Part shown: positions 1,719 to 59,350 of the stretch, one piece after another
How positions within the stretch are numbered: the first letter of the stretch is position 1
Layout: each line of letters begins with the position of its first letter
Assembly (NCBI GenBank): GCA_021904315.1
Contig: CM038911.1
Span: 1,676,501 to 1,740,500, forward strand
DNA from: Sphagnum magellanicum
Lineage: Eukaryota; Streptophyta; Sphagnopsida; Sphagnales; Sphagnaceae
Direction: 5' to 3'
Length of the DNA stretch: 64,000 bases
The notes under the pieces: model-generated
Seen by the model: only the letters and a program-made list of their open reading frames with translations
Database searches by the model: none
What the model was told of the DNA's origin: nothing
Made by a program: the position numbers and the translations under genes

Positions 1719-1791
1719 GCCGTCCTAGCTCAGTTGGTAGAGCGCAAGGCTCTTAACCTTGTGGTCCAGGGTTCGAGCCCCTGGGACGGCG
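1719..1791 (+). tRNA. tRNA-Lys (anticodon CTT)
   Basis: This is a complete 73-nt cloverleaf without an intron. The acceptor arms GCCGTCC (1719-1725) and GGACGGC (1784-1790) pair fully. The D arm is 1728-1743. The anticodon stem CAAGG/CCTTG encloses the loop CTCTTAA with anticodon CTT at 1752-1754, which reads AAG (lysine). The T arm CAGGG/CCCTG encloses TTCGAGC, and the discriminator base is G (1791). The A and B boxes of the Pol III promoter are intact. An AT-rich TATAAATA stretch lies about 45-50 bp upstream, and a T run follows downstream. No stem has a mismatch, so the gene is probably functional. CCA is not encoded, as expected for a nuclear gene. Confidence 0.96.
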
Positions 1792-38009: not shown

Positions 38010-38749
38010 AAGGGTGTTCCCAATACTTTTATCCCATAAATCCAATAATTTAAATTTTGAAGAGGTCCACAAACCAAACAAAAAACATTATGACATGTCC
38101 TAAAAATCATACTCATTTTTATCATCTGTCCTTGACAAATATCAATACCTACCATAATATATCATATGAAGAATATACTTACCAATAACCTACCAGTAAT
38201 ATCAATATTATTATACCTACCAATAACCCACTATATTTTCTGTGTGTGACAGACAACATGCAATGTGTTTTTGGTCAATTTTGTGATGTAGCCAGAGTGG
38301 CGATGATCCAAAGGAAGATTTTACCAAATTTGGCCACAAGCTAAATATGAAAGTAACTTAAAAAAAATATCCTTCTACATTCTTGGCTAGATGATCAGAT
38401 GATTTTTCTGAAAATTTGGTTAAATTTTGGCTACTGAAAATCTCAAAAAGCACATATAAATTAGCACTTAAATTTTTCAATATAGCATTAAAATGGCTAT
38501 ATGGATAGCTTGCCAAACAAAAGGCTGATAACATGATAGATCTCTTGAAGTAGTAAGTAGTTGTGTACCAGTTACAAGGTATTTGGATAAAAGTAATTAT
38601 AATATGGTATGTGACTAGCAAATGCCAAGAAATGCGTCACCAATTCATACATGGCAAGCAGAAACCAAGCAGGAAAGCCTTATGGATCCATGAGTTCAGA
38701 CAGGAAAAGTTATCTCCCTAGACAACGGACCCTCATAGTTGTTTTGTGT

Positions 38750-38900
38750 GTTCTTCCACAAGCGAATGTTTCAATGATCCAATCTTGATCGCCTTTGTAA
38801 CTTCCACAAGCGAATGTTTCAATGATCCAATCTTGATCGCCTTTGTGTTACACAAAGGCGATCAAGATTGGATCATTGAAACATTCGCTTGTGGAAGAAC
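38750..38900. repeat. 46-bp unit present three times: two direct, one inverted, forming a perfect foldback
   Basis: Unit 1 (38753-38798) and unit 2 (38801-38846) are identical and begin CTTCCACAAGCGAATG. The stretch 38851-38897 is the exact reverse complement of 38801-38847, a 47-bp perfect stem with a 3-nt loop (TTA). The outer GTTCTTCC of unit 1 also matches the outer end of the inverted arm. The 48-bp direct period is a multiple of 3, so a plus-strand frame (38746-38985) runs through and repeats STSECFNDPILIAFV. It lies in the 3' flank of the open COMT-like gene, inside arm B, and has no counterpart in arm A. Confidence 0.95.
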
Positions 38901-39199
38901 TGTTCACCCACCATCACCACCGACCTTTCCTGAACATCCTCGCTCGAGCCCTTGTACAGTTTTATGGTGGTCCATGGATTTGTAAGACTTGTTACCCTCT
39001 GCTCTGCTAATTGTTGATTGCAGAGAACTGATTTACGACACAATCGATCTGCTGCAGTTCCCCCTACTCTTCTGAGACAAATCTGTATCCAAAAAGAGGA
39101 GCATGAATCGACTTAATGTCTTGTTTGAGAATTGAGGTTAAATTGCTTAAAGATTTACAAATGAAAACTATACTGGTGAAAGAGAGCATACCTAGCATG

Positions 39200-40497
39200 T
39201 TATGCTTTGTTGAATTCGAGCACTGAAAGGAAGCCGATGCTGACGACCACAGATACGCTTGCCAAGCCGGCAGTCTTAGCCAGCTCCTGAAACTCCTGCA
39301 GTGTTCGCTCCCTGGCACCTACCGAATTGAAGGCCAGCATTATCAGTTCCATGCGTAATCTGACTGTCGGTCCTGCACCAAGCTCGGATTGCAGTAGCAA
39401 ATCCGGAAGCACCGATTCCAAGGCAATCACCTTTCCTCCACTGGTTGGCAATGCGTTGAAGCAGTTGCGCAAAATTGTAACGCATTCCGAATCATCCCAG
39501 TTATGCAAAATCCACTGCAAAAAGCGGACAATTCATCAACGACACTCAGCAGCAACTACACGACTGTAAGGAGGAGGAGGAGGAGGACAACAACACAGGA
39601 AGAACTAATTCAGAACCTGCATGAAGATGGTATCACCAGACGGTACGCTCTCAAACATGTTTCCACCGACGTGCTCCACCCCTGTGAAACATTTGGAAAT
39701 TGGCAGTAATGAGTGGCTGAAGCTCTGGTCGAATGGTAAGGTCACAAACTAGTTGATGATCTACGGGATGGCGAGAAGCGAGTACATGATCGAGCAATAC
39801 CTGGATAGGGAGGCGAGGCTGCGACGACATGGGGTAGATCATAATTGATTCCTCGAATGTGCGGGTACTTGGCAGCGATGAGGGCAAGCGAGGACCCTGT
39901 ACCACCTCCAACATCCACCAAGCATTTCCCGTCCTGGAAGTCATGGTAAGCTCGCAACACAGCTTGCATGTAGAGCCGCGAGTGCTGAGCCATCCCCGCG
40001 TTGAAGATTTTGTCGGACCGTGGATTGTGGCTGGTATGCTGGAAAAGACTCTCCCCGTGAGCTTTTCTGAAAGTGTCCGTGCTGTCGTCGAGAACCGTCG
40101 CAGACAGATGATGCCATGGTTCTATGAAATCACGGTCTTGCGACAGGATTATGAAGGGCGCCAATGAAGCTGCGTCCTCGTCGTTCCTCACAAAATAAGT
40201 ACCTACGGGTTGCAGCGCGTAGAAGCGCTCCGTGCTGCTGCTTGAATTGGCGCTCGCGACTGTCACAGCGGATTCGCGTACAACATTCTCGGTGGCCAGT
40301 AGACGCAAGATACGCTCCAGATACCTATCGTTGATTACGGATAGTCCACCGCTATCAGGACGAAGCACTTGCGACGCAATGTCCTTCGCCGTCAAGCTCT
40401 TACCAGCTCCGCGTGCTTTTGCGAGGATTTCGAACACACCTAAGTCGACTGCCGCTTTCAAAGCCGCAGGCACAGCCATCGTGGTGGCAAGTCTCAT
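39200..40497 (-). CDS. COMT-like SAM-dependent O-methyltransferase, 3 exons, start uncertain
   Basis: It probably transfers a methyl group from S-adenosylmethionine to a phenolic hydroxyl (caffeate, flavonoid or a relative) in the cytosol. The exons are 40497-39801, 39681-39617 and 39514-39200, with GT-AG introns of 119 and 102 bp, giving 358 residues from MRLATTMAVPAALKAA (COMT usually about 360-370). The dimerisation/winged-helix part comes first, then LVDVGGGTGSSL (SAM binding), GINYDLPHVV, GVEHVGGNMF across the exon 1-2 junction, and ILHNWDD with the catalytic His. ESVLPD and ARERT carry the two Glu residues that position it. The Asp normally after the His is Asn here (HNW), whereas the pseudogene twin has HDW. 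Upstream of 40497 the frame stays open for 39 codons homologous to the twin's N terminus, but the twin's ATG is ATT here (40614-40612) and a TAA lies two codons before it. Translation may therefore start at 40497, lacking part of the dimerisation arm, or at ATT. Confidence 0.88.
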
Positions 40498-47169: not shown

Positions 47170-47735
47170 TTTGTTCTTTGATTTGATCCTATCCAAGGTT
47201 ATAAAAAAATAACAAGGAAAGCAACTTTTTTTTGTCTCTTTTGGTCCTATATTCCAAACCTAAAAAGAATCAAAATGGACCCCTTTCATGTGTAAAAAAT
47301 ATATCTATTTTTTTTGGTCCTTACTATTTTTAGCCGCTAGCCCAAAAGTATCATTTTTATCAAAGTTGGAGGGGACGAAAGCCATACAAAATGAAGCCTT
47401 CTTTAGACCATAGAAAAGCAACTCCTAATACTCTGACAATTCCCATCATATGAAATGGGTTTAAACTCCAATTATGAAGCTCCTTTGCCATCACAAACTA
47501 AGCATCTCATATTTAATAATGGAAATCATGTAAAATTTGTTCATGCATAATTCGTATATTTCACACACTAATATCATGCATTGAAAACACATTTGACACA
47601 TGAATTTATAGGACGATGCAAAATTCGTTTGACATTCATTCATTCATAGGTTTGTATTTCATTCATCAACACATTTGTCCATGTGTCAACCATGTTTTCA
47701 ACACATGGTATTCATGGGCGATAATTGATACTTGT
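47170..47735. repeat. Direct duplication, copy 1 (second copy 47905-48256)
   Basis: The two copies share a GGTTATAAAA...CAACTTTTTTT...TTTTGGTCCTATATTCCAAA head. They also share a nearly identical ~245-bp tail that begins CTCCTTTGCCATCACAAACT (47483 and 48012) and ends CAACACATGGTATTCATG. Copy 1 has about 190 bp extra between head and tail. Because the tails are so alike, the duplication is fairly recent. Confidence 0.9.
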
Positions 47736-47904: not shown

Positions 47905-48256
47905 TTTGCTTTTTAATTTGATCTTATCCAGGGTTATAAAAGAACAACAAGCAACTTTTTTGCCTCTTTTGGTCCTATATTCCAAAGCTAAAAAGAATCA
48001 AAATGGACCAGCTCCTTTGCCATCACAAACTAAGCATCTCATGACTTAATAATGGAAATCTTGTAAAATTTGTTCATGCATAATCATACATTTCACACAC
48101 TAATATCATGCATTGAAAACACATTTGACACATGAATTTATTAGACGATGTAAAATTTGTGTGACATTCATTCATTCATAGGTTTGTATTTCATTCATCA
48201 ACACATTTATCCATGTGTCAACCATGTTTTCAACACATGGTATTCATGTGTAAAAA
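47905..48256. repeat. Direct duplication, copy 2
   Basis: Second copy of 47170-47735, shorter by about 190 bp between head and tail. The CATTCATTCATTCATAGG tract is kept in both. Confidence 0.9.
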
Positions 48257-49080
48257 TGTATAAACCTTTGAATGAACGAACTTCACATGATTTCATTATT
48301 AATTCGTCACATGCTAAATTTTTTATGGCTATTCCTTTTGGATTGGAAATGTGGAATAAGAGGGTCAAATCAAAATAAAGTATACCAAAAAAATAAATAT
48401 CTCCACTTTAACTTTGTGCCTCTCATATAACTACCATAAAGTAACATCAAATTAAGTGAAAATATGTGTCAAGTAGCATTAGTTGGCTCTATTAAATTTA
48501 TAAGAATCTAATTCTAAAATAATTAAAGAAAATGAATTTTAAAAGTAAATAAAAAATACATTTGAAGCCAACTAAAAAATATGTGTTCAAACCTACTTTT
48601 TGGTTTAAAAAATTAATGAAATTGATATGTAATAAGTTAGGAAATGAAGATCAACATATGTTTTAGTGAGTCATAAAAAAAAATCTATTTCCTTTTTGTA
48701 AAATCCTACTTGACAACTACTTAAAACGAAAAGTTCATAGTGAAAAGTAAATGTCAAAAGTTATTTGTATTTTGAAAAATCTATTTAAAACCTACTTTTA
48801 CAGTTTGAAATATGAAAATCAATGCACATTAGGGTAAACATATATCATATTTAGTCATTGAAATGAAAGCATTTCATGTTTCACAATTCTATAATGGGTT
48901 TTGTTGTTATTTTAAATTTACTTATTCCAGTTTTGACAAGGTAATCAAGTTGTTCATTTTATTTTGCTTACACCCAAGATTAATTATTTAAATAAAAATA
49001 TCAAATTTTTGATACTTGAGTTTTGCAAATGATTTTTTAAAAAAAATCCACCATATAAATAAAATTTGAAATTAAAAAAA
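48257..49080. other. AT-rich DNA, no gene seen
   Basis: No recognisable feature was found between the duplication and the CACTA-like MITE. Confidence 0.4.
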
Positions 49081-58089: not shown

Positions 58090-58130
<41 letters not shown>

Positions 58131-59350
58131 TATTTTAATATATTAATAATATTATTTTAATATTATTAGTTATGTTAATATACCTACATGGTTAGTAAGA
58201 TACAATAGTCAACTTACAAGTATCTAAACATCTTAAGCTAATTTCTAGTTTAAGTTAGGTAATAATATTAAAATAATATTAATTATTAATCACTATAAAT
58301 AATCATAATTGTTAAAAATCTCTTCTAATTATAATTATAATAATTAATATTACTATTGAAAACGAATCACTTTATTAATAATATTATTATTAACATTAAA
58401 ACATTATTATATTAATACTTATTTATTATTATTTCTTCTAATATATTGATATCCAGCTTGTAAATAAATTAGGTTAGTACATAACAACATATTGTGGTTG
58501 CATTTAATGTGCAATTAAGTTGGTGATGTTTGTAATGGAATTTTTTATCCCATATTTTCTGGCTTCCAATCCAATTTTGCACACCATATAAGTATGTTCA
58601 CAAACCAAGTACCAAGTGCCATTGGGGATGAGCTAATAAAAAAAGTTTGACCTTAATTAAATGGTGAAGTCCAAAAATAAAATAAGATTATTCTAAATCT
58701 ACCTATTTAGCCTAAGCCTACCTTTCGACCTACTTACATACTTAGACTGACTTACCTACTTAATAAAGTGTAATAATTACCTACCTACTTAGGCACCACA
58801 TGTCAACATTTTAGTAACCTTAAATTGGATTATTTAGATTTCATTAATTAATATTTAAAAATAAAGATAAGTGGGCCTTAACTGCCACATGTCACCATAT
58901 AATTGATGTTTAAAATGGACATGTGTCAAATGGTCAATGAATGTTTCATGGTGTGCCATGTGTCATCATCATAATGGTATGTATGGATGAACATGTATAT
59001 TAACACCATATATACATGTTGCATTCATAGTATCACATGCTATTAAATGTTATGTGAGACTTGTTTTAAGCAACTACACAAATTTGACGTTGCATGTGTT
59101 ACATGCAACTAAATTTTTGTTGCAAATGACAATTGCAAAACTCAAAATTTCTATTAATGTACATAATTGTAATTGAGTTGCATATGTATACAATTTCACA
59201 TGTAGTCAATTACATTCCTTGTAATTCATGCAACTTATTTAATAGCACTCACGCCCATAGAAATACATTAAGTTGTAATATGTTGCAAATGATCATTGCA
59301 ACTCAAAAACCAAGTTGCAAAGCTAGTTGCAAATTACCCCATTTTTTCAT
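56641..59350. repeat. AGTTGCAA / TTGCAACT motif-rich region, possible subterminal repeats
   Basis: The words TTGCAACT, ATGCAACTA and AGTTGCAAA recur many times in both orientations, with clusters near 57077-57110, 57720-57790, 57830-57855, 59070-59140 and 59270-59335. Dense short motifs of this kind are typical of the ends of CACTA-type elements, but no convincing CACTA terminus was found. Related words reappear at 61210-61320 and 61900. TAGG tracts lie at 57315-57410 and 58700-58800. Confidence 0.5.
58090..58131. repeat. Palindromic AAT/ATT microsatellite
   Basis: A TAA run passes directly into an ATT run, giving a near-perfect self-complementary microsatellite able to form a hairpin. Confidence 0.95.

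Follow-up and report, generated by a model that had tools for sequence, protein, structure and literature searches.

A three-copy foldback in the 3' flank of a COMT-like methyltransferase gene of Sphagnum magellanicum, probably formed by local template switching

A 46-bp unit occurs three times between positions 38750 and 38900 of the window (the whole stretch of 64,000 nucleotides of Sphagnum magellanicum that was analysed; contig CM038911.1, positions 1,676,501 to 1,740,500, assembly GCA_021904315.1), twice in direct orientation and once as an exact reverse complement. We regard it as a genuine mutational scar, of a type already known. Comparison with paralogous sequence indicates that a polymerase probably (at a probability of about 0.8) switched templates at a quasi-palindrome already present in the 3' flank of one member of a COMT-like gene family, leaving a templated inverted insertion of local origin; most likely the resulting scar has no function. 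As an apparent double excursion in a plant genome it is unusually easy to read: the paralogues supply the insert-free state, and the switch points can be placed with nearly single-base precision.

The two direct copies (38753-38798 and 38801-38846) are identical at 46/46 positions. Perfect inverted pairing extends past the unit, with 38801-38848 matching 38850-38897 over 48 nt (100%, 1 nt between them) and 38750-38798 matching 38852-38900 over 49 nt (100%). These figures confirm the arrangement reported in the initial annotation, namely two identical direct copies and a third that is their exact reverse complement, and RNA folding returned the same 47 pairs and 3-nt loop that had been described for the foldback. 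The inserted block comprises 38750-38849 (100 bp), giving a net gain of 99 bp (Table 1). Inserted copy 1 starts with three bases (GTT) that are missing from copy 2, while the C of the intervening AAC doubles as the first base of copy 2. The original copy starts with ACACAAA, the right half of the quasi-palindrome, and the centre base of the quasi-palindrome is T at 38849 as opposed to A in ten paralogues (L009-L013 and L015-L019).

The foldback is present in the assembly and lies far beyond what chance produces. When spacers of up to 400 were allowed, 50 first-order Markov simulations of the window yielded perfect inverted repeats of 16 nt at most. Among the real repeats of the window other than the foldback, an AT-rich 22-mer ranks first in length and several 20-mers come next. 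A random sample of the same genome (200,000 bases from 20 places on four contigs, 8,196 of them N) contained four perfect inverted repeats of at least 14 nt with a spacer of up to 60, the longest being 16 nt. Several overlapping inverted repeats were also seen in an AT-rich region with AAT/ATT runs at 58090-58392 of the window.

Table 1. Features of the foldback locus and of the related methyltransferase flanks (window coordinates unless C5 is named; F numbers are positions in the ancestral template)
Feature	Position	Strand	Description
Left flank	38700-38749	+	Collinear with paralogues; last ancestral base is template F76
Left flank end	to 38749		TTTTGTGT; left half of ancestral quasi-palindrome
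Inserted copy 1	38750-38798	-	Reverse complement of ancestral F128-F80, 49 bp
AAC	38799-38801	+	Read as return to primary template F77-F79
Inserted copy 2	38801-38849	-	Reverse complement of ancestral F125-F77, flipped centre base included
Original copy of unit	38850-38900	+	Ancestral orientation; the copy initially annotated as the inverted third one
Perfect hairpin	38801-38897	.	DNA: 48-bp arms, 1-nt spacer; RNA: 47 pairs, 3-nt loop
COMT-like O-methyltransferase gene	39200-40497	-	Several ORF pieces read as exons; Dimerisation and Methyltransf_2 (Pfam); 40497 is the first ATG of the ORF, a putative start only
Inverted flank pair on C5	near 1621367 / 1629073	+ / -
Inverted flank pair on C5	near 1747682 / 1755313	+ / -
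Inverted flank pair on C5	near 1824949 / 1832444	+ / -

The neighbouring gene has its stop codon at 39200-39202, which places the foldback some 300-450 bp past the stop, in the 3' flank. The nearest solved structures to its product include plant caffeic-acid and related O-methyltransferases. Its ORF pieces are shared, in corresponding order and at 79-98% amino-acid identity, with the six paralogues compared (L002-L005, L007 and L008). A diverged paralogue lies in opposite orientation at 20.9-22.3 kb of the window (81% amino-acid identity over 174 residues), and the whole-genome search found no copy of the unit near it or elsewhere inside the window. The earlier remark that nothing like the foldback occurs in the paired arm (about 20.7-21.8 kb) therefore holds for the window; beyond it, the unit is found as a single copy, at least in part, at no fewer than twelve other genomic places. 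On C5, methyltransferase flanks occur within about 325 kb as three inverted pairs some 7.5-7.7 kb apart (Table 1) and as single copies, in what looks like a locally amplified gene cluster.

The ancestral state was read from these other places. When 38700-38950 was searched against the whole 439-Mb genome, at least twelve were returned (L009-L020), and these were aligned. The insertion is absent from all 12 found, 11 of which are informative at the joint; these are paralogues and not orthologous alleles. The left flank runs straight into the unit in ten of them (L009-L013 and L015-L019) and also in the diverged copy L020 on C12 (79% over 100 bp). L014 is uninformative here because its own deletion takes away the left side and the joint. 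The left flank thus aligns in 11 of the 12 paralogues, in L013 over 111 bp only. For nine of them its identity is 95.4-98.1% across 318-352 bp; for the right flank the figure is 95.8-97.3% with L009-L012 and L014, across some 400 bp. The original copy at 38850-38900 is identical at 51/51 positions in L009, L011, L015, L016, L017 and L019 and at 50/50 in L018, and is partial or carries one or two differences in the other five. The joint reads TTTTGTGTAACACAAAGG in 9/12 paralogues, and the same number have the quasi-palindrome TTTGTGT-A-ACACAAA at this spot, the exceptions being L018 (one base changed), L014 (deleted) and L020 (diverged). No perfect inverted repeat of at least 14 nt with a spacer of up to 60 was found in any of L009-L020.

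The insert-free state of the paralogues, the direction of change and the local origin of the inserted bases are thus directly visible. Since twelve paralogous places are without the insertion and nine have the quasi-palindrome exactly there, 38850-38900 is the original copy and the two direct copies are the newcomers. This reverses the wording of the initial annotation, in which the inverted copy appeared as the derived one. As judged from the aligned sequences, the ancestral locus had the unit once, oriented like that supposed third copy and overlapping TTTGTGT-A-ACACAAA. Two further length changes were noted among the paralogues: the L014 deletion (near position 1000), which reaches some 15 bp into the unit, and one of about 78 bp common to L015-L019, which starts 22 bp to the right of the unit. 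The idea of an indel hot spot was set aside, as two such deletions are too few events for the claim.

If L009 is taken for the ancestor, generic parsing of the locus is cheapest as F27-76, the reverse complement of F128-80, AA, the reverse complement of F125-77, and F78 onward, with one substitution at 38922. Identical pieces were obtained with L011, L012 and L016 as ancestor. This parsing leaves AA as filler, and ancestral F77 (A) appears inverted as the T at 38849. A model with two excursions, run on L009-L013 and L015-L019, accounted for 222/222 window bases from L015 and likewise from L016, the AA and the flipped centre base included. The fit was 221/222 from L011, L017 and L019 and 222/223 from L009; it was poorer from L010 and L018 (219/222 each) and from L012 (218/222). 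L013 gave 33 mismatches, 25 of which lie in the left flank, where the comparison is ungapped across a 3-bp indel. No filler is needed for the AA because F77-F79 reads AAC, which is what the primary template offers where copying left off. Taking the AA as templated is suggestive, given that two bases would match by chance about once in 16. Both inserted pieces map to ancestral F77-F128, the two excursions cover the same 46-49 nt, and no ancestral base is missing in this reading. Microhomology at the joints, read off by hand, is about 0, 3, 1 and 7 nt. The blunt left junction (F76 to R128) and the single nucleotide at F79 to R125 count against the template-switch reading, as do the poorer fits and the three paralogues without the exact quasi-palindrome.

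The proposed sequence of steps would begin with synthesis quitting the primary template at F76. The opposite strand would then be copied from F128 back to F80, the primary template resumed at F77-F79 (AAC), and a second excursion made from F125/124 back to F77. Synthesis would finally return at F78 or a few bases further, the exact point being ambiguous because of the 7-bp palindrome arms. Equally, the steps could be read in mirror image on the other strand, and in that case the first switch would have taken place with 7-nt microhomology (TTTGTGT with ACACAAA). A template switch to the opposite or nascent strand at a quasi-palindrome, repeated once, would explain together the inverted orientation, the flipped centre base (A to T, because the opposite strand is copied), flanks that stay collinear, and excursions whose far ends, F128 and F125, nearly coincide. 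The fit of the two-excursion model and the paralogues together argue for short-range template switching rather than a transposon or a read foldback. The initial annotation had listed template switching among its alternatives, and this one is now strongly supported by the paralogue alignment, the parsing and the two-excursion fits. Both excursions may have belonged to one event, with the polymerase engaged either in replicative foldback at a stalled fork or in Pol theta-type repair synthesis.

The locus has the features of a short-range template-switch mutation. The inserts are the reverse complement of ancestral sequence lying within tens to hundreds of nucleotides, synthesis returned to the primary template with both flanks collinear, and the ancestral state and direction come from relatives, which are here paralogues and not orthologues. 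A pre-existing quasi-palindrome, frequent in such mutations and not required, is present at the switch point. As outlined in PMC7954356 and PMC8794818, the four-point template-switch model likewise has a nearby stretch copied in reverse, giving a perfect inverted repeat at a stroke, and the second of these papers argues that such events create perfect hairpins. The moss locus differs from the cases presented there in having two successive excursions on nearly the same template, in a plant, and in being recognized through paralogue comparison. By our own assignment, excursion 1 follows the switch-point order 1-4-3-2, given in PMC7954356 as one of two majority patterns in great apes; for excursion 2 the palindrome arms leave the order ambiguous.

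Two further known systems offer parallels. According to PMC5677150, rad27-delta yeast shows quasi-palindrome correction and palindrome elongation with amplification, for which foldback of the nascent strand is proposed. The moss foldback similarly starts from a quasi-palindrome, ends in a longer palindrome and has amplified DNA; unlike that experiment, it lies in a natural genome. In plants, Pol theta is described (PMC10923293) as inserting iterative templated 'fillers', copied in either orientation from near the break and lying in deletions. Iterative insertion from a nearby template is common to both, whereas in the two-excursion reading the foldback is accompanied by no deletion and lacks no ancestral base, which sets it apart from the fillers as that source describes them.

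Within template switching, the two inserted copies may instead have arisen in two events: a single excursion would have given a simple hairpin, one arm of which was then duplicated in tandem at a 48-bp period, the 2-bp AA being filler where the copies join. This is a sub-version of the template-switch explanation, and the odds of the two overlap. It is possible, if on the doubtful side: the generic parsing does leave AA as filler, and tandem 46-bp direct copies are what end-joining or slippage would be expected to produce, but the AAC offered by the primary template where copying left off makes a filler unnecessary and no one-copy intermediate was seen among the 12 paralogues found. We judge one iterated event to be about twice as likely as a hairpin with later tandem duplication. 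Of a different nature is an assembly or sequencing artefact, that is, a read foldback, also raised in the initial annotation, or a polishing error on a hairpin. The foldback is present in only 1/13 loci and hairpins are hard to sequence, yet one would not expect a read foldback to be followed by collinear sequence left and right, or to bring in two copies whose starts differ by 3 nt. With both flanks collinear with the paralogues and the inserted bases accounted for by adjacent ancestral sequence, an artefact is unlikely. Insertion of a small mobile element (a MITE or foldback element) would be in keeping with the inverted-repeat structure and is nevertheless rejected as extremely improbable: the inserted bases are copies of adjacent sequence, no target-site duplication was found by eye, and the insert is present at 0/12 of the other places found.

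The initial annotation had inferred a very recent event from the identity of the three copies. No difference was indeed found in 3 x 46 bases; this bounds divergence only at about 2.2% per copy (3/138). The divergence from the nearest paralogue on each side is 1.9-2.7%. As the two figures are similar, 'very recent' says hardly more than that the event postdates the separation from the paralogues.

A further proposal concerns function, and is compatible with an origin by template switching: the foldback would be an incipient hairpin-RNA or MIRNA locus, transcribed in the methyltransferase 3' flank, diced, and silencing paralogues in trans. A perfect 47-bp RNA stem can form on either strand; 131-nt pieces have a minimum free energy of -83.3 kcal/mol (+) and -85.7 kcal/mol (-), and three pieces gave stem z-scores of -16.2, -17.4 and -18.3. 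The stem-loop could yield a 21-24-nt duplex. Such stability is no sign of selection, because any perfect inverted duplication gives it automatically, and the capacity to yield the duplex is equally automatic. All 28 21-mers of the 48-nt unit occur in 6/12 paralogues (L009, L011, L015, L016, L017 and L019) and 27 in a seventh (L018), with 7-12 in L010, L012 and L013 and none in L014 and L020; the hairpin, if diced, could therefore act in trans. Against a functional locus, the hairpin occurs in 1/13 loci, so it is not conserved among the paralogues (conservation is not required of a newborn gene), and it lies about 300 bp past the stop codon. A cmscan search of the whole window against Rfam at gathering thresholds gave only one tRNA, a tRNA-Lys (CTT) gene at 1719-1791 (+), with no match at the foldback, and a known RNA family for the hairpin was rejected on this result, though a new gene need not belong to one. 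Among six AATAAA-like hexamers, none was found on the minus strand from the stop codon to 38600; TTGTAA at 39160 and TGTAA at 38852 are present, and polyadenylation patterns are indecisive on transcript ends.

A Dicer substrate, as suggested in the initial annotation, is thus possible in principle, and nothing that was tested supports an incipient small-RNA gene; we consider such a locus very unlikely. Still a little less probable is the stronger version that the sequence might suggest, a newborn and still perfect hairpin-RNA locus in which a single slip would have led to dosage silencing of the locally amplified family. Were it true, at least seven paralogues would have 3' flanks to which its small RNAs match perfectly over almost the entire unit. 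De novo miRNAs are reportedly formed by template switching in primates. An inverted-duplication model of MIRNA origin, as set out in PMC3237417, also has a piece of a gene family giving rise to a perfect hairpin, and lends the proposal some support; by contrast with that model, the hairpin here is at a single locus and is derived from 3' flank rather than coding sequence. By itself the foldback leaves the general picture unchanged, while it illustrates that a single local slip can place a perfect RNA stem of 47 bp in the flank of a gene, and such stems are the material from which new hairpin RNAs are proposed to arise.

The unit had also been noted to keep a frame open at its 48-bp period. On the plus strand, a frame of some 52-55 codons that crosses the unit into the right flank (38843-39010) is open in several paralogues, and a Pfam search of its peptide gave no match up to E = 1. 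The copy on C12 has one stop and 50% amino-acid identity over 52 residues, as against 84% DNA identity over 99; the frame is not visibly constrained, since amino-acid identity is far below DNA identity. A coding reading of the unit was rejected on these grounds and the open frame looks incidental. Elsewhere in the window, a direct repeat of 179 nt (47552-47730 and 48084-48262) was observed, its copies 92% identical and 532 bp apart from start to start.
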